A stretch of 64,000 nucleotides of DNA, taken from positions 62,001 through 126,000 of the forward strand of contig CAJXTB010000013.1 of the NCBI GenBank assembly GCA_913061235.1. Direction: 5' to 3'. The notes under the pieces were generated by a model. That model ran no database searches. It was not told the DNA's origin and saw only the letters and a program-made list of their open reading frames with translations. Position numbers and translations under genes: made by a program. Origin of the DNA: an uncultured Pseudomonadota bacterium (GTDB lineage Bacteria > Myxococcota_A > UBA796 > GCA-2862545). Positions 42,633 to 54,008 of the stretch are shown in pieces (position 1 is the first letter of the stretch; each line of letters begins with the position of its first letter).

Positions 42633-44744
42633 CTAGAAGACGTCGGGTCCAACGTCCCAGAACCAGTCGTCTCCGAAGTCTAGCGGGTAGGCCCAGCCGC
42701 TTGTGCGGTAGGTGACGCTGGTGTCCCATAGGTCGATGGCTTCGCTGACGTCCAAGTCCTCGCCGTCCTCCTGCCACCACTGCACGATGTCTGCGTTGTC
42801 TTGTGCGGCCAAGGCCAAGATATCGGCGTTGTTCTGCATGTCGTCTGACAGGAATGGCGCCCAGTAGTGACCGACGTACTCTTCAAGGACGCGCCTACGT
42901 ACATCTGTTGCGGTTGGGCGGTCCAAGATGGCTACGTTCAGCTCACCTTCGTACTTGTAGCCCCGATTGTTCCAGTTGCACGAGCCGACGGACACGTAGA
43001 CGTCATCCACAATGCGCAGCTTGCTGTGGTTGTAGATGGGGACGTCCAGAAGTTCGACGGTGTCCCAGAAAATGCCGACGTCGGTGTACAGGTCGGTCGC
43101 TACGAGCTGAATCAACACGTAGCGGTCCCCAAAGCGCTGGAACCGCTGGTCGTTCTCGACCGTCCACCGCAGACCGGGGTCGGACCCACTGACTGCGTTG
43201 GTCACCACAATGAGCACAAGGTCAGGCTCGTCCCACATGCGCTGTTCTAGGGTCTCGGCAATGATGGGCGCGCGGAAATACTGGTCTTCAATCAGCACGT
43301 ACTCGGTCGCCTGCTCAATGGCGCGAAGGTGAGTCTCTAGGATGGTCTGCTCAAGGAAGGGCTCGGGCATCGTGGCGACAATCTGAAGCGGAACGCCACC
43401 GGAAGGCTCACGGGCGGCGGGTAGTGCGGTCAGCGGTGTTGCGGAGTCCGCGTACAGGACGTCATCGGCAATGCCCTGTGACCATCGGGTGCGGAAGTAG
43501 TCTTCGACGTCTCGTGCGGCGGGGCCTTCGATGCGTACACTGAAGTCTTTTCGTGGGTCCAGCTCGCTCGGCTCGTTGCCGTATGCGACCTCAAGGCGGT
43601 CGTCTTCGTCGGCGTCGAAGGGCATGCGGCGGGGCTCGAAGACCGCATGGTCGCTTGTGTCCCAGTCGGCGGCCTTGGTGTTCATGCCGGTGATGAGGGC
43701 CACTGCGCCGTCGACCACAATGCCCTTTTGATGCCAGCTTGCGGCGTCGACCGCGTCTAGTCCTCTGCGTGCGGTGACATCGGCCTGTTCAGCACGCTCA
43801 TCGGGGTTCTCGCTGCGCACGCGCCGGAGGAAGGAGATGGGCTGGGGGACGGCGTCGTAGGTGTCATCAATGCTGACCTCGGTGACGTTGCCCTGGAGCA
43901 TGACCTCAAAGTCGTCTCCACTGTCCTGCGCGTAGGCGCGTAGGGCCGAGTCGGTATTGATGTAGGCGGTAAAGTCGAAGTTCTCGCCCCAGAAGCGGTT
44001 TATGAGCACTCGCGTGTCCACATCTGCCTCTTCCAGCACCGCCATCACCGTGTTGCCTTCACGCTGCGACTCGCTCATGGTCGCGTGGCCCAGGGGTCGA
44101 ATGAGCTCAAAGTCGCTCTCCCAGTACCAAGTCGACCAGGTGACCCGCTCTTGGGCCGACGCGACCATGTCATAGGCCGCCTGCCAGCCTTCTTCCCCGT
44201 CAAACAGCACCTCAGCACGGTTGTTCGTTGGGCGGTTGGCCGAGGGTGCGAACCAGTGGTGGTCCAGTCCAACCCAGACCGTCATGGTGTCACAGGACAG
44301 CCCGTCTACCGTGGTGATGTTGCGGGTCACGGCCCACCGACTGCGGTCATCGAGGCGTTCAACGCGTACGCCTGCGTTTGTGCTCTCAATGCGTACTCGC
44401 GCATTGTGGTGGTCCTGAGCGGACATGGAGACAGTCACGGCACCGGGCACATCTTGGCTCCACCACGCCACGCCGTCGCCACGACTGAAGGTGTCAGAGG
44501 ATGGCGTGGGGACCTCGCTCACGGACGCGGTTTGTGCCCATGGGTCCGTGCCTACTACCGTGATGAGTGTGCCTTCGCAGGCGTCATCGGGCTCTGGTAG
44601 GGGCTCTTGGGTGTCTGTGTCCGGGTCGTTACCGACATCTGGCTCAGACGTATCGGAGTCCGTGCCGTCGGTATCAGGGGCTTGGACGTCGACCTTTGGG
44701 GTACAGGCGGACAACAACAGGGCAATGAGAAATGGTGCTTTCAT
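42633..44744 (-). CDS. Phospholipase D-family lipoprotein, 703 aa
   Basis: Predicted lipoprotein: signal with lipobox LSAC, then an acidic Thr/Asp stalk (residues 20-50). A beta-rich domain (60-180) precedes the two HKD half-sites: WHQKGIVVDGAVALITGMN near residue 338 and NHSKLRIVDDVYVSVGSCNW near 572. Both have the expected His and Lys, and downstream Asn residues, so the enzyme should be active. It could cut phospholipids, as a toxin or scavenging enzyme, or synthesise cardiolipin-like lipids; export with a stalk favours action on external lipid. An active-site Asp of classic HxKx4D is present in GIVVDG and RIVDD. Confidence 0.9.
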   Translation of the reverse strand: MKAPFLIALLLSACTPKVDVQAPDTDGTDSDTSEPDVGNDPDTDTQEPLPEPDDACEGTLITVVGTDPWAQTASVSEVPTPSSDTFSRGDGVAWWSQDVPGAVTVSMSAQDHHNARVRIESTNAGVRVERLDDRSRWAVTRNITTVDGLSCDTMTVWVGLDHHWFAPSANRPTNNRAEVLFDGEEGWQAAYDMVASAQERVTWSTWYWESDFELIRPLGHATMSESQREGNTVMAVLEEADVDTRVLINRFWGENFDFTAYINTDSALRAYAQDSGDDFEVMLQGNVTEVSIDDTYDAVPQPISFLRRVRSENPDERAEQADVTARRGLDAVDAASWHQKGIVVDGAVALITGMNTKAADWDTSDHAVFEPRRMPFDADEDDRLEVAYGNEPSELDPRKDFSVRIEGPAARDVEDYFRTRWSQGIADDVLYADSATPLTALPAAREPSGGVPLQIVATMPEPFLEQTILETHLRAIEQATEYVLIEDQYFRAPIIAETLEQRMWDEPDLVLIVVTNAVSGSDPGLRWTVENDQRFQRFGDRYVLIQLVATDLYTDVGIFWDTVELLDVPIYNHSKLRIVDDVYVSVGSCNWNNRGYKYEGELNVAILDRPTATDVRRRVLEEYVGHYWAPFLSDDMQNNADILALAAQDNADIVQWWQEDGEDLDVSEAIDLWDTSVTYRTSGWAYPLDFGDDWFWDVGPDVF

Positions 44745-44798
44745 TGCACCGGTCTAACTGCACACGACTTAAAAAGCCTGTGCCGCACAGTGTTGTTG

Positions 44799-44840
44799 GA
44801 ACGGGTTGATCTGGGGACGCGTTGTTCAGGTGTGTGCAAG
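44799..44840. repeat. Imperfect ~42-bp repeat, copy 2
   Basis: It aligns with 11812-11853. Translating the minus strand of both gives weakly similar pieces (HTPEQRVP and HGPEHRIP), so a shared coding relic is possible. Confidence 0.35.
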
Positions 44841-44953
44841 GCGGCAACCGTCATGAGTGGCAATCCGCATATCCCGAGCGGGAGGGGGGCTCGCGCGGGA
44901 CTGGACGTTGGTCTCATCCGCATCAGAGCGTGGTGCGAACAAGGCGCTTCTGC

Positions 44954-44961
44954 GGTATTAT
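44954..44961 (+). promoter_or_regulatory. Candidate -10 box (GGTATTAT) and leader hairpin
   Basis: GGTATTAT ends 35 bases before the ATG at 44997. Between them GACGT/ACGTC (44972-44984) can form a small hairpin. GGGGAG is the Shine-Dalgarno sequence. Confidence 0.4.
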
Positions 44962-44996
44962 TACGGGGCAAGACGTTCGACGTCAGGGGAGCTTGT

Positions 44997-46427
44997 ATGT
45001 GGTTTGGATTGCTAAGCGTGCTGCTGGCACCGGTAGCTGGTGCGGCAGATGGAAACGCGAACGGGTGCGATGACGCCTACGAGGCCAATGGCGCCTGTGT
45101 GTCGACCACAGCCAGCGTAGACCCCAGCGTCACCGTTGGTGGCTCAAGCCAAGTTCGAGCGCGAGCGAGTGTTGGCCCCCGGACCGCGATTGGAAGTGGG
45201 GTCACCATTGGCGTGCGCGCGGCTCTTGCCGGGCGCGACGACCACGCATCCAACCCGGTCACGATTGGCAATGACGTGATCATTGGCCGCTCGGTCACAC
45301 TTGGGCCGGACCATGTCTTGGGCGCAGGTACCGTACTTTCACGTTCGGTTACCGCCGGGTCGGACCTGACCACCGGCGCCAACGCTTCGGTTGGCTACGC
45401 CTCACAGCTTGGCTCCAATGTCACCCTTGGCGACGCTTCTGTCATCGGTAGTCTGGTGAACCTTGGCGACTATACGGTCATCAGCAACTCCGCGGTTCTC
45501 GCGCGCAGCGTGACTATTTCATCGGCACTGAACTCCATTGATGGAACCGTGGTTTCTGGTGTTGTTGGCCCGGAAGTCTCGGTGGGTACCGGCGTTGAGA
45601 TTCAAGCCGGCGCACGCGTCCGCAAGCGTGCAGTCATTGCAGAGGGCGCCACAGTGGAGAGCACAGCACGCGTTGGCCGCGACGTCACCGTGGGGGCTGA
45701 TTCGATTATCCGCGGAAGTGTTCGTGCAGGTGCTGTGATTGGTGAGGGAGCGACTGTTGGCGACGGTGCCATTGTTGCCCGCGGTGCTGAGGTCTGTGCC
45801 TCGGTCACGGTCCCAGATGACGCGAACGTAGGCGACGTCTACCCGCCAGAGGGCTGCGTTGCGGCAACGGGATGCCATGCAATTTTGCTGGCTGGCGGCT
45901 CTACCGGCGACGGGCTGTACACGATTGACCCGGACGGAGCGGGCGGAGAAGCACCGATTGACGCGTACTGTGACATGACCACAGACGGAGGTGGCTGGAC
46001 TCTGGTAAGTCGCGTCAAGACCAGTACGACCGCTCACCGCGATGTTGCTGCGGTGGGAACCTTGACTTCCCCGGGGCAGGCCAGTGTCGCCAAGCTGGCA
46101 GATGTGGACATCAACGCTCTCCGGGGGCCGGACTACCTACAGAGCGTTGTGCGCTTCACCTGTGGCACCCTGACCACCTACTTCCAAGAGGACAAGACGT
46201 TCGATGCAACGGCGCTTTCTGCCGGTGCTATCGACCGTTGTGCCTCTACCTGGGACGCAACGACCTGGTACGAAAGCACCCCGTACTCTAGCCATGGCGG
46301 TCTCAATACCTACGGCCAGACCGCGAACTGTGGCTACATCATGTACACCCTGGGAGATAACAGCTTCGAAGGCTGCTACAGCGGGATCGACGGATACAAT
46401 CAAGACGGCGCCATGTGGGTGAAGTAG
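44997..46427 (+). CDS. Secreted left-handed beta-helix plus fibrinogen-like protein, 476 aa
   Basis: Exported. ATG 44997 (GGGGAG upstream) gives a signal peptide ending AGAA; the longer open frame upstream is not used. Residues 30-285 are hexapeptide repeats (VGGSSQ, VGPRTA, IGSGVT, IGVRAA) forming a left-handed beta-helix. SVGYASQL and RVRKRA match the equivalent positions in the proteins at 25900 and 62587. Residues ~295-476 are fibrinogen-like: GLYTIDPDG, YCDMTTDGGGWTLVS, Cys pairs, ending AMWVK. It is a paralogue of the protein at 25900. The ligand is unknown. Confidence 0.85.
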   Translation: MWFGLLSVLLAPVAGAADGNANGCDDAYEANGACVSTTASVDPSVTVGGSSQVRARASVGPRTAIGSGVTIGVRAALAGRDDHASNPVTIGNDVIIGRSVTLGPDHVLGAGTVLSRSVTAGSDLTTGANASVGYASQLGSNVTLGDASVIGSLVNLGDYTVISNSAVLARSVTISSALNSIDGTVVSGVVGPEVSVGTGVEIQAGARVRKRAVIAEGATVESTARVGRDVTVGADSIIRGSVRAGAVIGEGATVGDGAIVARGAEVCASVTVPDDANVGDVYPPEGCVAATGCHAILLAGGSTGDGLYTIDPDGAGGEAPIDAYCDMTTDGGGWTLVSRVKTSTTAHRDVAAVGTLTSPGQASVAKLADVDINALRGPDYLQSVVRFTCGTLTTYFQEDKTFDATALSAGAIDRCASTWDATTWYESTPYSSHGGLNTYGQTANCGYIMYTLGDNSFEGCYSGIDGYNQDGAMWVK

Positions 46428-46538
46428 AGGCTTCGACTGAGCGGTAAGTCAGTCGACACCGTCGCGACTCTGGGGCATCGGATGGGCCATCGCGCATCCA
46501 CTCTGTCCATGCGTCGCGCATCGGAATATGCAGCAGCC

Positions 46539-47483
46539 ATGTCAGGTCCCCTCGTCGTGCTCGGCCCTCAGCGGCCGAACCAAAACTTGAGTGCAGTCCT
46601 TGAGCGCTCGGTGACGGAGCCAGGGGCGATTTCCGTGATCAGCGCAGGCTGGCGGTATGACGAAGCGGACATTGGACCGCTGCAGGCTGCCTTACGTCGC
46701 CCGTCGCATCACTTGGCGCTGTACACTTGGTTTGACGAGCTGTTGCGGGCACACCCGGACCTCAAGCGCTCCTATAGGGCTCGGCAGGACGCTATTCGGG
46801 CACACAAGGTGTTGTACCGCATCCGCGTTGACGCCTCGCTCATTGCGGTTCGCAGGCTGCGAGAGCTGTACGACGGTGACCCGGACGGTGTGTGGCCTGA
46901 GCTTCAGCGCGCGGCAAAGGCTGTTCGGCGCGTCGATGACGACTTGATGGAGGAGTTGGACACCATCAACGCACGCTTCCCGGAGCTTGCGACACCGTGG
47001 GAACGTCCTGAGGTTGCCCCGTACGTCGAACGCATTCAGGCTATCGTCCAAGACTGTGCGGCAATCGCTATTGCCGGTGGACACGTGGCGGTGCTTCAGA
47101 ATCGCCTGCACTTTTTTGGCTTTGATGCCCTGTTGACCGCGTGGACCCGGCCTATCGTTGCGTGGTCCGGCGGCGCGATGGTGCTGACCGACCGCATTGC
47201 GCTGTTCTACGACGACCCCCCCGAGGGCCCGGGTGAGGCTGAGGTCTTGGGGCCCGGACTTGGCTTGTTGCCCGGCGTTGTGCTGTTCCCCCATGCTGAG
47301 CGTCGCTTGCGCATGGACCAGACGCACCGGCTGTCGAGCCTTGCGATTCGCTTTCAGCCCGCGGACTGCATCACCCTTGAGAATGGCGCCCATCTCGTCC
47401 GCAGGGACGACTCTTGGCATAACGAGGGAGTGTCCGGCTCGGCCCTACGAATCCGGCCTGACGGCACCCTGGAGACGCTCTAA
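46539..47483 (+). CDS. S51 / class-I glutamine-amidotransferase-like protein, 314 aa
   Basis: First gene of the ATP-grasp cluster. The fold is suggested by IAIAGGHVAVLQNRLHFF followed by IVAWSGGAMVL, where Ser210 occupies the nucleophile-elbow position used by peptidase S51 (cyanophycinase, dipeptidase E) in place of the Cys of glutamine amidotransferases. LFPHAERRLRM may carry the catalytic His. S51 enzymes cut peptides with unusual acidic or isopeptide links, which would fit a cluster that also makes amide bonds. ATG 46539 starts just before the conserved LVVLGPQRPN; 46482 and 46509 are alternatives. The next gene overlaps its stop by one base. Confidence 0.65.
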   Translation: MSGPLVVLGPQRPNQNLSAVLERSVTEPGAISVISAGWRYDEADIGPLQAALRRPSHHLALYTWFDELLRAHPDLKRSYRARQDAIRAHKVLYRIRVDASLIAVRRLRELYDGDPDGVWPELQRAAKAVRRVDDDLMEELDTINARFPELATPWERPEVAPYVERIQAIVQDCAAIAIAGGHVAVLQNRLHFFGFDALLTAWTRPIVAWSGGAMVLTDRIALFYDDPPEGPGEAEVLGPGLGLLPGVVLFPHAERRLRMDQTHRLSSLAIRFQPADCITLENGAHLVRRDDSWHNEGVSGSALRIRPDGTLETL

Positions 47484-48634
47484 TGGAACGCATTCTGGCG
47501 CTCATTGAGCAGCTCAACACCGGCCCAGACCGCCGACATGAGACGCTGTCGGCATTCGTGGACGGGAACAGCTTTCCCCTCGTTCATGAGCACCAGGCGG
47601 TGTTCTTCTTCTGGGACAGCCACCACACCGAAGGTGTCGTGCTCGCTCACTGGGTCTTCGGACTTGAGTCACGCCAGGAGTTTCAGCGCATTGAGGGAAC
47701 GGACGCCTTCTACCTGCACCTCGAGCTGCCCCTAGGCTCTCGTGTCGAGTACAAGCTGGAGCTCCATCGCGGCGGCGAGCGGCACTGGATTCGTGACCCG
47801 CGCAACCCGCAGCAGGCGTTTGACCCGTTCGGCTCAAACAGCGTGTGCACTATGACTGGCTACGCGGAGCCTGCCTGGGTGCGCCGAGCGCGTGGCGTGC
47901 CAAAGGGCCGCTTCGAGACGCTGCGCATTCCGTCGCAAGTATACGGTGGGGAACGCACACTTCGGGTCTACCTACCGGTCGAGTACAAACCGTCCAAGAG
48001 CTACCCAGTGATGGTGTGCCACGACGGCGACGACTACCTCAAGTACGCACGAGTGGATGCAGTGCTCGACAACCTCATCGCGCGGCACGAGGTGATGCCG
48101 ATGGTCGTGGTGTTCACGTCGGGTGGCGACCGGAACGCGGAGTACGCTGCTAATCCCAAGCAGGCCGCCTTCTTGGTAGACGAGGTCCTTCCTGCGGTTG
48201 AGCGGTCCTACGGTATCAGCCACGACCCCAAAGAACGCGGACTGATGGGGGCTAGTTTCGGCGGTGTGTCCAGCTTGTACACCGCGTGGAGCCGTCCTGG
48301 CGTGTTTGGCCGCCTGATGCTTCAGTCCGGCTCTTTCGCGTTCACAGACGTTGGCCACCACAACCGCGGCCCACTGTGGGACGACGTCGTTGCGTTCGTC
48401 AATGACTTCCGCCGTGACCCCGCCCGTGTTGATGCGCGCATGTTCCTGTCGTGTGGCACCTTCGAGTCGCTGATCTACTACAACCGGAGTCTGGTGCCTC
48501 TGCTCCGCTCCGCCGGACTTCAGGTGCGCTACGTCGAGGCTCAGGACGGTCACAACTGGATCGCTTGGCGCGACCGTCTGCGCGAAGGACTCACGTACCT
48601 GTTTCCCGGCCACCTTAGAATGGTGTACGAATAG
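47483..48634 (+). CDS. Alpha/beta-hydrolase of the enterochelin-esterase type, 383 aa
   Basis: Esterase-D/Fes-like hydrolase. Residues 1-135 form an E-set-like beta-sandwich (AVFFFWDSHHTEGVVLAHWV, FYLHLELPLGSRVEYKLELH), as in enterochelin esterases. The catalytic domain starts near RVYLPVEYKPSKSYPVMVCH; the nucleophile is Ser258 in MGASFGG, Asp may be in LSCGTFES region, and His in DGHNWIAW. No signal peptide. It starts within the stop codon of the S51-like gene (TAATG), so translation is coupled. In this cluster it may release or hydrolyse a conjugate, by analogy with siderophore ester cleavage. The substrate is unknown. Confidence 0.85.
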   Translation: MERILALIEQLNTGPDRRHETLSAFVDGNSFPLVHEHQAVFFFWDSHHTEGVVLAHWVFGLESRQEFQRIEGTDAFYLHLELPLGSRVEYKLELHRGGERHWIRDPRNPQQAFDPFGSNSVCTMTGYAEPAWVRRARGVPKGRFETLRIPSQVYGGERTLRVYLPVEYKPSKSYPVMVCHDGDDYLKYARVDAVLDNLIARHEVMPMVVVFTSGGDRNAEYAANPKQAAFLVDEVLPAVERSYGISHDPKERGLMGASFGGVSSLYTAWSRPGVFGRLMLQSGSFAFTDVGHHNRGPLWDDVVAFVNDFRRDPARVDARMFLSCGTFESLIYYNRSLVPLLRSAGLQVRYVEAQDGHNWIAWRDRLREGLTYLFPGHLRMVYE

Positions 48635-48663
48635 ACCCCCAACGGTGAATCACCGGAGTCAGC

Positions 48664-49914
48664 ATGGACGTCCGCAAAATCGGCCTGTCACTTGGAGCGG
48701 ACCTGTGCTGGCCCGCCGCTTACGAAGACCTGCTTGAGCTGATGGACTTAACTGTCGAGGTCGACGGTAAGGCAGTGCGTTTCGACGTAGAGCGAGTGGT
48801 CATTGAACCTTTCGACCTCCGCTATAAGCCCCGGTATGACTTGGTCTTGGACCGTCTGACTCACTGGTTCGACGTCTCGCGCGAGTGGATCAAGAAGATC
48901 ACGCTGATGGACGACGTGTACGTGCTCAACAACCCGTGGTCCATCCAGAGCATGGAGAAGCACACCAGCTACTGCGCCATGATTCGCTTGGGCTTTCCCA
49001 TTCCCGAGACTTGGATGATTCCGCCCAAGGAGTACGACCTCAAGCAGGGCGACACAGCGGTCACCATCAAGCGGTACAACAAGCTGTTTGACCTAGCGAG
49101 TGTTGGTGAAGCGACTGGGTATCCAGCCTTCCTCAAACCTTATGACGGAGGCGCCTGGGTTGGCGTGAGGCAGGTCAAGAATGACGACCAGCTACGCGAG
49201 GCGTACGACGCATCGGGCACACGGGTCAACCACCTACAGACCGGTGTAAAAGACTGGGACCTGTTCGTTCGCGGAGTGGGCATTGGGCCCCAGGTCAACG
49301 TCATTCGCTACGACCCCGACGCGCCGCTACATGGCCGTTACCTCGTAGACTTTCACTTCCTTGACGGCGCAGGTTGGGAGACAGCCCAGCGCACCACACG
49401 CGTCATCAACGCGTTCTTCGGCTGGGACTACAACTCGTGCGAGATGCTACGTTCGGACGGCATTCTACAGCCCATCGACTTTGCCAATCCGTGCCCAGAT
49501 AGCCAGGTCACCAGCCTGCACTTCCACTTTCCATGGATGGTGAAGGCGCTCATTCGATGGACCATCTACTGCGCTGCGGTTCGTCGTAAACCCACGCTGA
49601 ACCTGGACTGGGCCCCATTCTTCGCCATTGCAGATACCGACCTGCCGTTCGAAGAAAAGCTCATTCAGTACGACGAACTGGCCCAGGCTCATTTCGACAC
49701 CGAGCGCTTTGCTGCCTTCAACGACAAGTGGCTAGGCGACCTCGACGCGATTGCTCTGGAGTACTTCGGCACCGAGCGCTTTCGCGGCATTGTCCGCGCC
49801 AAGGCCGAGGCCATGTACCCAGCCCATGAGGTCGAGGCGTTCACCGAGCACTTCTTCGGCTTGGTCGGGTTTTGGCGAAAGACAGAGGCTGAACGCCTTG
49901 CGGCGACCTCGTGA
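48664..49914 (+). CDS. ATP-grasp ligase (first of three), 416 aa
   Basis: Predicted ATP-dependent ligase forming an acyl-phosphate and then an amide or ester. The nucleotide-binding piece is FLKPYDGGAWVGVRQV near residue 160, and the metal-binding end of the fold is around NLDWAPFF. The N-terminal part is RIRK-like and divergent (DVRKIGLSLGADLCWPAAYE). It is clearly different from the other two ATP-grasp genes of the cluster, which resemble each other. AAGGTG-like spacing of 29 bases from the esterase gene and a 4-base overlap with the next (GTGA) indicate one operon. Carboxylate and nucleophile are unknown. Confidence 0.78.
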   Translation: MDVRKIGLSLGADLCWPAAYEDLLELMDLTVEVDGKAVRFDVERVVIEPFDLRYKPRYDLVLDRLTHWFDVSREWIKKITLMDDVYVLNNPWSIQSMEKHTSYCAMIRLGFPIPETWMIPPKEYDLKQGDTAVTIKRYNKLFDLASVGEATGYPAFLKPYDGGAWVGVRQVKNDDQLREAYDASGTRVNHLQTGVKDWDLFVRGVGIGPQVNVIRYDPDAPLHGRYLVDFHFLDGAGWETAQRTTRVINAFFGWDYNSCEMLRSDGILQPIDFANPCPDSQVTSLHFHFPWMVKALIRWTIYCAAVRRKPTLNLDWAPFFAIADTDLPFEEKLIQYDELAQAHFDTERFAAFNDKWLGDLDAIALEYFGTERFRGIVRAKAEAMYPAHEVEAFTEHFFGLVGFWRKTEAERLAATS

Positions 49915-50636
49915 ACCGTCGCACATGGGCGTGGAAGAGCCCGCATCTGGACCGCGAGATGAACGTGGCGTGCTGGGGGCACTTCGGCGTACCCGTTCTG
50001 CTCTTTCCGACCGGTGCTGCCGACTTCTTGGACCACGAGCGGTTCCTCATGCTGCACAAGCTCGAGCCCCTCATCGACGCCGGACGCATCAAGGTCTACA
50101 CCTGCGACGCCATCACGGCGGACGGCTGGTTGAACGGCACTGCACACCCTGCACACAAGTCGTGGATGCAGGCGAGCTTCGACCGCTACTTGGTGAACGA
50201 ACTACTGCCGCATATCCAAGACGACTGTGGGGGTACCACCGGCATCATTGCGGCTGGCGCATCGATTGGAGCCTACAACGCGGTGGCTGCTGCTTGCCGG
50301 CATCCCGAGTGGTTCTCACGGGTCATTGCCATGAGTGGTACCTACGACTTTGACCGCTGGATGAACGGCTTCAAAGACGCGAATTACTACTTCAGCCAGC
50401 CACTGTACTTCGTACCCCGCTTGGAGGGACCGGAGCTTGATGCGCTGCGACAGGTGCACTTTGTCATTGCCAGCGGGCAGGGACGTGCCGAGGCGCCAGA
50501 CGAGTCACGCCGAATGGCCGAGGTGCTGAGCGCCCGTGGCGTGCCGGTCGACCTTCAGATCTGGGGCCGCGACGTACACCATGACTGGCCGACTTGGCGC
50601 ACCTGGTTGCCTCACTTCTTGGACATTGCCACTTAG
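49911..50636 (+). CDS. Alpha/beta-hydrolase, putative esterase, 241 aa
   Basis: A compact esterase-family protein. The nucleophile elbow is GASIGA with Ser118; His is probably in DVHHDWPTW and Asp in GRAEAPD. The start HLDREMNVACWGHFGVPVLLF is typical of this group, which includes proteins annotated as esterase family. There is no signal peptide. GTG 49911 overlaps the stop of the ATP-grasp gene by four bases (GTGA). Two different hydrolases within one ligase cluster suggest separate steps: for example activation or transfer, and release. Confidence 0.85.
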   Translation: MNRRTWAWKSPHLDREMNVACWGHFGVPVLLFPTGAADFLDHERFLMLHKLEPLIDAGRIKVYTCDAITADGWLNGTAHPAHKSWMQASFDRYLVNELLPHIQDDCGGTTGIIAAGASIGAYNAVAAACRHPEWFSRVIAMSGTYDFDRWMNGFKDANYYFSQPLYFVPRLEGPELDALRQVHFVIASGQGRAEAPDESRRMAEVLSARGVPVDLQIWGRDVHHDWPTWRTWLPHFLDIAT

Positions 50637-50669
50637 GGCCCGCTGTCTGCGGCTGACCCGGAGATTCCT

Positions 50670-51896
50670 ATGCACGTGATCTTTGTCGCTCCCCACTTTC
50701 CGGCCGGTCAGCGTCGTTTTGCGCAAGGTCTGAAGAATGTGGGTGCCCGCATCACGGGCATTATCGACTGCCCGATAGACTTCGTAGACTCGGCGGTCCG
50801 TGCGCTGATGGACGACTACGAGCGGGTGCCGAGCTTGGCGGACGAGGACGCCATGGTCGCCGCGGTCAAGCGTATTCAGGCTCGCGGTCCCTTTGTGCAC
50901 AGGCTGGAGGCGACCATCGAGTCGCACACGCTGATGACGGCACGTGTGCGCGAGCGCTGCGACATTCCGGGGCTGCCGTACGCGGTTGTAGAGCGCTGTC
51001 GGGACAAGCTGCTCATGAAGCAGTTCCTGGCCAAGCATGGCATTCCAGGTGCCCGTGCGGCCGAGGTCTCTACGGCCAGTGACGCGTGGGAGTTCGCCAA
51101 GCAGGTGGGGTTTCCGCTCATCCTCAAGCCGCGTGATGGTGCTGGAGCCTACGCCACCTACAAGCTGGAGAATACCGACCAGCTCGCTGTTGCTCTCGCG
51201 CAGACGGGTCTGGACAAGCGCAAGGGCTACTTTGTCATGGAGCAGTTCGTGAGCGGTCACGAAGGCTTCTACGACACCCTCACCGTCGGCGGAACCGTCG
51301 TCTTTGAGTTTGTGAGTCACTACTACCCGAACGTCTTGACGGCCATGCGCGACCGCAGCGTCTCGCCCATCATCATTGCGACCAACCGGTTGGAGCAGGG
51401 GGGCTACACCGAGCTGCGCCAGTTTGGACGCAAGGTCGTGACGGCGCTTGGCATCGAGACTGCCGCCACGCACATGGAGTGGTTCTTCGGAGAAAAAGGC
51501 TTGTTGTTCGCGGAGATTGGCGCGCGACCGCCCGGCGTTAACTACTGGGACATCTACAGCGCCATTGGCGAGGTCGACATCTACACCGAGTGGGCCCGTG
51601 CCGTGTGCTGGGGCGACGTTCACGCCACACCGGGTCGCCAGTACTCTGGGGGCATTGTCAGCATCCGTCCAGACCGCGACGGCCAGATTCGCGGGTACGC
51701 CGGGGCAGACGAGGTGCAGCGCCGCTTTGGCGAGTACATCTTCAAGGCACGACTACCCCCTGAAGGCACACCGACCCAGCCTATTGAGGCGGGCTACCTG
51801 GCGAATGCCTACGTGTGCGTCAAGCATGAGAACTACGATACCTGTCGGGACATCCTGCAGGAAATCGGCCGCACACTCAAGCTGTACGCTGCCTGA
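50670..51896 (+). CDS. ATP-grasp ligase (second of three), 408 aa
   Basis: ATP-grasp fold of the carbamoyl-phosphate-synthase/PurK type. Order: N-terminal Rossmann-like part (MHVIFVAPHFPAGQRRFAQG), central CRDKLLMKQFLAKHGIPGAR, the ATP loop FPLILKPRDGAGAYATYKL, the hinge YFVMEQFVSGHE, and the metal site LLFAEIGARPPGVNYWD. All ATP-grasp landmarks are intact. It is about 45% alike by eye to the next ATP-grasp gene, so the two arose by duplication. It probably joins a carboxylate to an amine or hydroxyl. Substrates are unknown. Confidence 0.9.
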   Translation: MHVIFVAPHFPAGQRRFAQGLKNVGARITGIIDCPIDFVDSAVRALMDDYERVPSLADEDAMVAAVKRIQARGPFVHRLEATIESHTLMTARVRERCDIPGLPYAVVERCRDKLLMKQFLAKHGIPGARAAEVSTASDAWEFAKQVGFPLILKPRDGAGAYATYKLENTDQLAVALAQTGLDKRKGYFVMEQFVSGHEGFYDTLTVGGTVVFEFVSHYYPNVLTAMRDRSVSPIIIATNRLEQGGYTELRQFGRKVVTALGIETAATHMEWFFGEKGLLFAEIGARPPGVNYWDIYSAIGEVDIYTEWARAVCWGDVHATPGRQYSGGIVSIRPDRDGQIRGYAGADEVQRRFGEYIFKARLPPEGTPTQPIEAGYLANAYVCVKHENYDTCRDILQEIGRTLKLYAA

Positions 51897-51970
51897 TCGC
51901 GAGGGGCCGGTCTCCGTGGTTATCGGGTTATAGACCACCAACAAAGTGCAACACCGTGGCAGGCCAATCC

Positions 51971-53188
51971 ATGAACGTCATCTTCTTGGCCCCGAACTAC
52001 CCCTCCGAGATGCAGCACTACACGCGCGGCCTAGCTGAGGTCGGCGCGCGGGTGCTGGGGGTTGGCGAGGCCCCACTGGAGTCACTGCCTGAGTCGCTCA
52101 AGGGGCACATGGCGAGCTACCTTCAGGTGCCTCGCTTGTTGGACGAAGACGACGTCATTGCGCGCGTTGAACAGTGGACTCGCGGCCACACCATTGCTCG
52201 CGTTGAGGGGCTCTGGGAGCCCGTCGTCATCTTGGCGGCTCGCCTTCGAGAACGTCTAGGTGTTGCGGGCATGTCCCTGCACACCGTGCGCGGATTCCGG
52301 GACAAGCAGCTGATGAAGGAGCGTGTCGCCGCAGCAGGTCTGCGCGTACCGCACTCGGCCAAGTGTGGAACCGAAGCCCAGGTCCGCGCAGCCGCAGAGG
52401 CCTGTGGCTTCCCGCTCATCGTCAAGCCAATCGACGGCGCTGGCAGCGCGGACACCTACCGCGTGGACAGTGCGGAAGAGCTCGACCGCGTCATCAACGC
52501 TGTGCGTCACATCCGCGTGGTGAGCGTTGAGGAGTTCGTAGATGGGGAAGAGTTCACCTACGACGCCATCTGTGTGGACGGTAAGCCGGTCTACGAGAAC
52601 GTGGCCCAGTACCTTCCGCGACCGCTCATCGCGCGCAGCAATGAGTGGATTAGCCCGGTCATCATCACCATCCGGGACCTCAAGCAGGCCCCCATCGCCG
52701 AGGGCATTGCGTTTGGTCGCAAGGTCGTGCGTGCGCTGAACATGGGAACCGGCTTTGTGCACATGGAGTGGTACCGGACGGCATCGGGCGAGGTTGTGTT
52801 CGGTGAGATTGGCTGTCGACCCGGCGGCGCACATCTCGTTGACCAGATGAACTTCACGTCCGATGTGGACCTGTTTCGCGAGTGGGCGAGGGCGGTGTGC
52901 CACCGCCGAATCATGACGAGCACACCGCGTGCCTACAACGTCGCCATCATCTTCAAGCGCGCTCAAGGCCAGGGGCGAATCAGTCGTATTGATGGCCTAG
53001 AAGCCTTCGGTAGTCGCTACGGTAAGTATGTGGTGGCCGACACGCTGTCTGCCGTGGGTACGCCACGTCGAAACTGGAAGAACACTCTGTTGAGCGACGG
53101 TTTTCTTATCTTGCGTCACCCGGAGTTTGCCGAGGCCAAGCGCATTGCTGAGGCGGCGGCTACGCAGATCACCCTGTACGCGGAATAG
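51971..53188 (+). CDS. ATP-grasp ligase (third of three), 405 aa
   Basis: Paralogue of the preceding gene. Landmarks: MNVIFLAPNYPSEMQHYTRG, FRDKQLMKERVAAAGLRVP, FPLIVKPIDGAGSADTYRV, VVSVEEFVDGEEFTYD and VVFGEIGCRPGGAHLVDQ, all in the expected order. ATG 51971 is preferred over GTG 51956 because it aligns with the start of the paralogue and GGCAGG lies upstream. Two related ligases in tandem would allow sequential addition of two building blocks, or act as a heterodimer; both are inference. Confidence 0.9.
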   Translation: MNVIFLAPNYPSEMQHYTRGLAEVGARVLGVGEAPLESLPESLKGHMASYLQVPRLLDEDDVIARVEQWTRGHTIARVEGLWEPVVILAARLRERLGVAGMSLHTVRGFRDKQLMKERVAAAGLRVPHSAKCGTEAQVRAAAEACGFPLIVKPIDGAGSADTYRVDSAEELDRVINAVRHIRVVSVEEFVDGEEFTYDAICVDGKPVYENVAQYLPRPLIARSNEWISPVIITIRDLKQAPIAEGIAFGRKVVRALNMGTGFVHMEWYRTASGEVVFGEIGCRPGGAHLVDQMNFTSDVDLFREWARAVCHRRIMTSTPRAYNVAIIFKRAQGQGRISRIDGLEAFGSRYGKYVVADTLSAVGTPRRNWKNTLLSDGFLILRHPEFAEAKRIAEAAATQITLYAE

Positions 53189-53252
53189 CGGCGGCGAGTC
53201 GTGTACCGAACCGATGCGCTTCAGCGGGTGGTACGCTTGGGCCGGAGGGCTC

Positions 53253-54008
53253 ATGCCCGGTCAGTCGAACGTGTTGGTGCGGGTGTTGTCGGCAGTGTTC
53301 GGCGTGTGGGCCTTGCTCGGCAGCATGGCCATGGCCGCCGTCTGTTGTATTGCCATGGTGCCCTTTGCACTGTTGCCCAAAGGCAAGCGTGAGCGGTACA
53401 CCCTGCCCATGGGGCAGCTGCTCTCATGGCTGATTCTGCGTGTGATGCTGCTGTCGCGCGTCCAGGTCCTCGGTGAGACACCTCCGCCAGGCGGCGCGAT
53501 GGTGCTGTGCAACCACCGCTCGTGGCTCGATGCCCTGATGCTGACTGCGTACACGGGCAGTGCGGGACTGGCCAAGCACGAGATTCGACGCATTCCCTTC
53601 ATTGGTGCTGCCGCCTCGCTCGCCGGAGCGGTGTTCATTGACCGCCGCAACCCCGAGTCCCGCGCGGCTGGGCGTCGCGGTGTCGTGGCGTTCATTGCCG
53701 CCGGGTTCAAGATTCAGCTGTTCCCCGAAGGAACGCGCACCCGGACTGGCGCCATTGCTGAGCGTGTGCATCTGTCCCTCATCTCGGACTGCTACGACGC
53801 CGGCCTGTCCGTACTGCCGTGTGCCGTCGCCCACACGGAAGATGCCCTGCCTACCGGGCAGTTCGGTGCGTTTCCACTCCAGCGCGCCACCCTGTACATC
53901 TGTCCGGTGATGCAGCCCTCGGAGTTCGATGACCGAGATGTGTTTGCCCAAGCGTGTTGGCAACAGGTCGTCGAGCAGGCCGACCGACTGAACGGCGTTT
54001 CGGAGTAG
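53253..54008 (+). CDS. PlsC-like acyltransferase, 251 aa
   Basis: Membrane acyltransferase, last gene of the ATP-grasp cluster. NHRSWLD (H88-x4-D93) and FPEGTRTR are the catalytic and substrate motifs; two hydrophobic helices precede them. ATG 53253 has GGAGG four bases upstream; the in-frame 53214 start has none. PlsC relatives also N- or O-acylate non-glycerol acceptors, such as ornithine-lipid OlsA. Within this cluster a lipid tail could be added to the amide product. The distance from the preceding gene is 64 bases, so membership of the operon is probable, not certain. Confidence 0.85.
   Translation: MPGQSNVLVRVLSAVFGVWALLGSMAMAAVCCIAMVPFALLPKGKRERYTLPMGQLLSWLILRVMLLSRVQVLGETPPPGGAMVLCNHRSWLDALMLTAYTGSAGLAKHEIRRIPFIGAAASLAGAVFIDRRNPESRAAGRRGVVAFIAAGFKIQLFPEGTRTRTGAIAERVHLSLISDCYDAGLSVLPCAVAHTEDALPTGQFGAFPLQRATLYICPVMQPSEFDDRDVFAQACWQQVVEQADRLNGVSE

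Follow-up and report, generated by a model that had tools for sequence, protein, structure and literature searches.

We found that six adjacent genes on one strand of the window (the whole 64,000-nucleotide stretch of DNA that was analysed) make up a recurring module, encoding an S51-like protein, two esterases (Est1 and Est2) and three ATP-grasp proteins (AG1, AG2 and AG3). The module is common to bacteria of at least five phyla and is apparently undescribed. The window holds a reduced version of it, which is without the third LAL-type ATP-grasp gene (AGx), the GCS2-like gene and the dedicated paralogue of the glycogen synthase GlgA. As a tentative reading, which we consider quite possible and short of probable, these genes would be the reduced form of a multi-phylum module for intracellular, carrier-free amide synthesis, the product of which is made with or attached to alpha-glucan.

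Six genes of the window form a recurring module

The window carries seven genes of interest:

46539 to 47483, + strand: S51-like protein (PF03575)
47483 to 48634, + strand: esterase 1, Est1 (Esterase, PF00756)
48664 to 49914, + strand: AG1, ATP-grasp protein (by predicted structure)
49911 to 50636, + strand: esterase 2, Est2 (Esterase, PF00756)
50670 to 51896, + strand: AG2, LAL-type ATP-grasp protein (ATP-grasp families; profile match to 4wd3)
51956 to 53188, + strand: AG3, second LAL-type ATP-grasp protein (ATP-grasp families; paralogue of AG2)
53214 to 54008, + strand: PlsC-like acyltransferase (Pfam Acyltransferase)

All seven open reading frames were found at these coordinates, and Pfam and NCBIfam confirmed the class names that a preliminary description of this DNA had given them. 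The two overlaps that it had listed, TAATG at 47481-47485 and GTGA at 49911-49914, are both exact. The longest reading of the S51-like frame is 46482-47483; however, the true ATG is likely at 46539, the start preferred in that description, because the family alignment begins there. When the PlsC frame is opened at 53127, it overlaps AG3 solely by way of an improbable TTG start, and the ATG codons at 53214 and 53253 both lie past the end of AG3. PlsC had been counted as a member of the cluster, but in the other AG1-anchored loci searched, we found no homologue of it close to AG1, which rules it out as part of the module. Since PlsC sits outside the module, the lipid component or lipopeptide that had been predicted is unsupported. 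The PlsC-like protein itself has matches below cut-off to AGP acyltransferase and lyso-ornithine lipid acyltransferase models.

The upstream flank was read by eye only. At 42633-44744 on the - strand, there is a gene for a 703-aa, probably secreted protein that resembles cardiolipin synthase and other PLD-like proteins and has two phospholipase-D-like HxK motifs (HQKGIVVDG and HSKLRIVDD). Just upstream of the module, a + strand gene at 44607-46427 encodes many hexapeptide-like repeats, of the kind that form a left-handed beta-helix, and, C-terminal to them, a fibrinogen-like region. No structured RNA was found in the window between 44000 and 57000.

The module recurs across phyla and its members are retained together

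A search of bacterial genome contigs retrieved 30 loci with AG1, and in most of them the gene order is S51-Est1-AG1-Est2, usually with AG2 and often with AG3. This four-gene order is found in dozens of loci from several phyla, so the neighbourhood is conserved beyond the source genome, which was the preliminary description's own test of its prediction. Among whole genomes, AG1 orthologues were counted in about 80 of the 284 from Myxococcota, about 27 of the 199 from Planctomycetota (matches above about 480 bits) and 5 of the 149 from Acidobacteriota. Among 249 Pseudomonadota genomes, and likewise among 80 genomes of the phylum of a record titled Krumholzibacteriota, the orthologue is present in the probe genome only; single records from rare phyla are to be read with caution, since the titles of some records, such as the loci given as Klebsiella pneumoniae, are clearly mistaken. 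Two loci with myxobacteria-like clusters lie on contigs of that title, which is probably wrong for both. AG1 had no match among 72,556 plasmids, which rules out a plasmid-borne module.

To count partners, we used 82 non-redundant AG1-anchored loci. Near AG1, we found Est1 in 64 loci, S51 in 62, Est2 in 60 and AG2 in 44, followed by AGx (35), AG3 (32), GlgA (29), GCS2 (20) and AstE (10). Five loci have one or more additional genes between Est1 and AG1. Fuller versions of the module also carry AGx, a GCS2-like protein with CBS domains, an amidohydrolase of AstE/N-formylglutamate-hydrolase type and a dedicated GlgA paralogue that is often in the module, four members that the preliminary description did not include. 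The GCS2-like protein has 670 aa with the CBS domains at its C-terminus, and its N-terminal half matches the YbdK family weakly, so that we call it a ligase only tentatively. Genes for AstE-like and N-formylglutamate-amidohydrolase-like proteins lie at cluster ends in different Myxococcota loci. In the window genome, GCS2 and AGx are absent, and the best matches to AGx there are AG3 and AG2 themselves.

AG2 is present in 77 of the 284 Myxococcota genomes. AG1 and AG2 are found together in 75 genomes, AG1 only in 5, AG2 only in 2 and neither in 202; co-occurrence therefore extends to 75 of the 82 genomes holding either (Fisher p 8e-60, a value that ignores phylogeny and is descriptive only). 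In 38 of these 75 genomes, the two genes lie on separate contigs or more than 20 kb apart, some of them perhaps because of assembly breaks. Many of the surveyed genomes are draft MAGs. AG2-anchored loci without AG1 often retain AG3, AGx, S51, Est1 or GlgA, and there are several 19 kb AG2-anchored stretches that lack AG1 yet contain AG3, AGx, S51 or Est1. Co-retention despite scattering points to a shared function rather than mere linkage, and conservation together with co-retention rules out a chance neighbourhood. AG1 and AG2 are both present in one single-contig Myxococcota genome, so a cultured host probably exists.

The ATP-grasp proteins resemble amide ligases

AG1 is the most conserved member of the module (52-65% identity across phyla) and has no Pfam match over cut-off. 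Its AF2 model (pLDDT 86.5, pTM 0.88) has an ATP-grasp fold. The nearest fold is RimK (Z 20.7, 262 residues, rmsd 2.6, with the match spanning residues 4-306), followed by synapsin, PurK, LysX and Ddl; nothing beyond ATP-grasp was named in the structural library that was searched, and other families may lie outside that library. Based on the model, AG1 is a divergent ATP-grasp protein of RimK/LysX/Ddl type and a predicted ligase. Its likeness to the RimK, LysX, ArgX and MdnC ligases lies in the fold (Z about 20), whereas identity is 14-17% and AG1 has an additional C-terminal helical extension (about residues 317-415) beyond the RimK-matched part. Unlike the genes of that group, AG1 is found in neither a lysine-biosynthesis nor a graspetide context.

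In Acidobacteriota and Planctomycetota genomes, we also observed a family of shorter AG1-like proteins (about 330 aa), which is common in Acidobacteriota. In one locus (L101:5827-11633), such a copy directly adjoins an Est2-like gene, which suggests a minimal pair of the short AG1 and Est2. Three Planctomycetota loci encode AG1-like proteins (about 350 bits) with the rest of the module absent; large proteins of about 830 aa, possibly kinases, lie nearby and are common to several loci.

When we compared AG2 with solved structures by profile, it matched the L-amino acid ligase 4wd3 (E 7e-24), BacD (2e-15) and BL00235 (2e-15) over most of its length. AG2, AG3 and AGx form three separate clades with 100/100 support each, and every clade spans several phyla, so these paralogues probably arose before the module spread. 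Judging from this grouping, AG3 is an ancient paralogue of AG2. The LAL C-terminal domain (PF18603) is matched by AG3 with E 0.012 and by AGx with E 0.002, both under the gathering score. The chemistry of the L-amino acid ligases (an acyl phosphate, then an amide bond) is probably shared by AG2, AG3 and AGx, and the ATP-grasp genes are of the amide-ligase type, as the preliminary description had it. In contrast to known LAL pathways, the module pairs three to four ligases with S51, two esterases and often GlgA; we found no known LAL pathway of such composition.

Because the folds nearest to AG1 include RimK, LysX and ArgX, whose substrates are protein or carrier-protein termini, the ATP-grasp set might modify a protein, for example a glycogen-associated protein tagged in RimK-like fashion, rather than a small molecule. 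However, three LAL-type ligases and two esterases fit small-molecule chemistry better. In addition, systematic clustering of partners brought up neither a conserved carrier protein nor a conserved small target; this procedure took in ORFs of 130 aa or more only, so that smaller conserved proteins could escape. We regard protein tagging as highly improbable.

Amidoligase gene neighbourhoods, as Iyer and colleagues are said to have described them in 2009, are clusters of ATP-grasp and other amide ligases with peptidases, and the module is alike in general kind. No PADLOC model matches any of the seven proteins, which rules out a known type of anti-phage defence. Neighbouring genes of the six are less than 60 bases apart, which leaves no room for a graspetide precursor gene, so a graspetide or other RiPP is ruled out between the genes. 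The words S51, Myxococc and glycogen are absent from the graspetide survey PMC8939145.

The S51-fold protein has lost its triad in most homologues

The S51-like protein scores 25.7 bits with Peptidase_S51 against a gathering score of 23.9, and its AF2 model (pLDDT 87.7) is closest to PDB 7uqv (Z 17.7), 3en0 (Z 17.0) and 1fy2 (Z 16.4), the nearest folds being, in order, pseudo-CphB, cyanophycinase and peptidase E. Nothing beyond S51/CphB/PepE was found in the structural library, outside of which other families may match, and a profile of the S51 family matched no S51 entry among PDB sequences. The fold is common to all of these proteins; however, the module family differs by an inserted helical hairpin (about residues 80-170, counted in the reading from 46482) and by catalytic Ser and His residues that are not conserved. 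By family alignment to E. coli PepE, whose catalytic residues we take to be the reference for the triad positions, the triad is S229/H271/E300, and the window protein retains all three. Of 47 family members, 37 have the Ser and 20 the His; the two are combined in 16, of which 12 also have D/E at the third position. As the triad is mostly lost in the family, peptidase activity is unlikely as a conserved role. The sequences suggest that, in most homologues, the S51-fold protein probably serves for regulation or binding and not as a peptidase, and a dedicated peptide cutter, as first proposed, is at odds with a family in which just 16 of 47 members keep both Ser and His.

The nearness of this fold to pseudo-CphB and cyanophycinase could also point to a storage polymer, that is, a cyanophycin-analogous nitrogen reserve that is made by ATP-grasp enzymes and managed together with glycogen. 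The fold nearest to AG1, RimK, includes a structure titled poly-glutamate synthetase, and the CBS domains on the GCS2-like partner would suit such a reserve as well. Cyanophycin itself was ruled out: the match to the synthetase model is 44.7 bits against 877 and to the cyanophycinase model 16.9 against 126.6, both far under their cut-offs. With a Mur-ligase partner absent and the S51 triad lost in most family members, a storage polymer of this kind is decidedly unlikely.

Est1, an alpha/beta hydrolase of CE1/Fes type, has an N-terminal domain like that of Fes and conserved Ser and His catalytic motifs. It has the same catalytic domain and domain order as enterochelin esterase Fes and CE1 esterases; however, it scores under the cut-off of the Fes equivalog (106.4 bits against 222), and siderophore genes were not seen nearby. 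Est2 is a small alpha/beta hydrolase (PF00756) in which GASxG and HDWpTW motifs are conserved.

A separate GlgA lineage is linked to the module

A glycogen-type gene is present in 32 of the 82 AG1-anchored loci (GlgA in 29 and a GlgC-like nucleotidyltransferase in 10); a GT3 glycogen synthase/phosphorylase protein, GH57, a debranching enzyme and GlgB are rarer. Among Myxococcota genomes, GlgA is found in 77 of 80 with AG1 and in 111 of 204 without it, a comparison that is not phylogeny-corrected. In a tree of 69 GlgA proteins, 38 of them module-linked, we found that 36 of the 38 fall in one clade with 100/100 support that has three other members only, and the remaining copies lie outside. In six genomes, a linked and an unlinked GlgA coexist; in every case, only the linked copy falls in the module clade. 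Linked GlgA passes TIGR02095 (524.5 bits for the copy of one locus, L019, against a cut-off of 328.45) and retains the KTGGL motif. On the evidence of the tree, the linked GlgA is a dedicated paralogue of the module: in contrast to generic GlgA (GT5), it is a separate, module-tied lineage, which is missing from the window genome. The sole GlgA of the window genome lies outside the module clade and adjoins GlgC on another contig, and it was ruled out as the missing module partner. A glucan link by way of the dedicated GlgA is, then, not essential in every host.

This absence, together with the 53 of 82 AG1 loci that have no GlgA nearby, would fit a pathway for a small-peptide secondary metabolite or a compatible solute (LAL/dapdiamide/NAGGN-like), to which the glycogen genes are neighbours for regulatory reasons only. 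The resemblance of AG2, AG3 and AGx to LAL, BacD, DdaF and PylC-type ligases is also as expected for such a pathway. In contrast, the dedicated GlgA lineage is kept across phyla, even beside a second, generic GlgA; clustering of ORFs of 130 aa or more showed no exporter or immunity gene that is conserved; and the module is spread far wider than a typical secondary metabolite. We judge such a pathway to be somewhat unlikely.

A proposed role in amide synthesis coupled to alpha-glucan

From the gene identities, conservation, co-retention, folds and the dedicated GlgA clade, we infer the substrates, the reaction order, the attachment to glucan and an intracellular product as follows. The six-gene set would make amides inside the cell without an NRPS or a ribosome. 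For this, AG1 and the LAL-type enzymes would turn amino-acid carboxylates into acyl phosphates, and AG1 with AG2, AG3 and often AGx would couple amino acids to give a small peptide or amide; in many genomes, the GCS2-like protein with its nucleotide-sensing CBS domains may assist the ligases. The RimK, GCS2, PepE/CphB, AstE and FGase families act on Glu or Asp, and by analogy with these related families, a likeness that is no proof of specificity, the substrates may be the acidic amino acids Glu and Asp. The two alpha/beta hydrolases, acting on acyl or aminoacyl esters, would trim, transfer or recycle acyl or aminoacyl groups, and in most lineages, the S51-fold protein would be a subunit for binding or regulation. 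Because there is no conserved exporter, the product would stay inside the cell, and because many fuller clusters include the dedicated GlgA paralogue, it may be made together with, or attached to, alpha-glucan. Against glucan coupling, GlgA is linked in 29 of 82 loci only, and the window genome has no AGx, GCS2 or dedicated GlgA. The more specific version, in which four cooperating ATP-grasp ligases and the dedicated GlgA paralogue make an oligopeptide or amino-acid amide that is covalently bound to alpha-glucan in at least five phyla, is unlikely.

In the preliminary interpretation, the conserved neighbourhood, the amide ligases and the absence of NRPS, carrier protein and conserved exporter have stood, whereas the lipid part and the S51 peptidase role have not. 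The extra members, the GlgA paralogue included, shift the likely product from a lipopeptide towards a compound coupled to alpha-glucan. The parts of the module belong to known superfamilies. In the open literature, to which our search was confined (subscription papers were outside its scope), we found no description of, and no product for, a module that combines them with the dedicated GlgA lineage; an earlier mention is possible.

Tight co-retention of the module in several phyla, even when its genes are scattered, probably reflects common functional selection, and the trio of AG1, AG2 and the GlgA paralogue provides specific markers for genome mining. If the glucan link is true, the module would represent an unrecognised connection between carrier-free peptide synthesis and bacterial glycogen metabolism.
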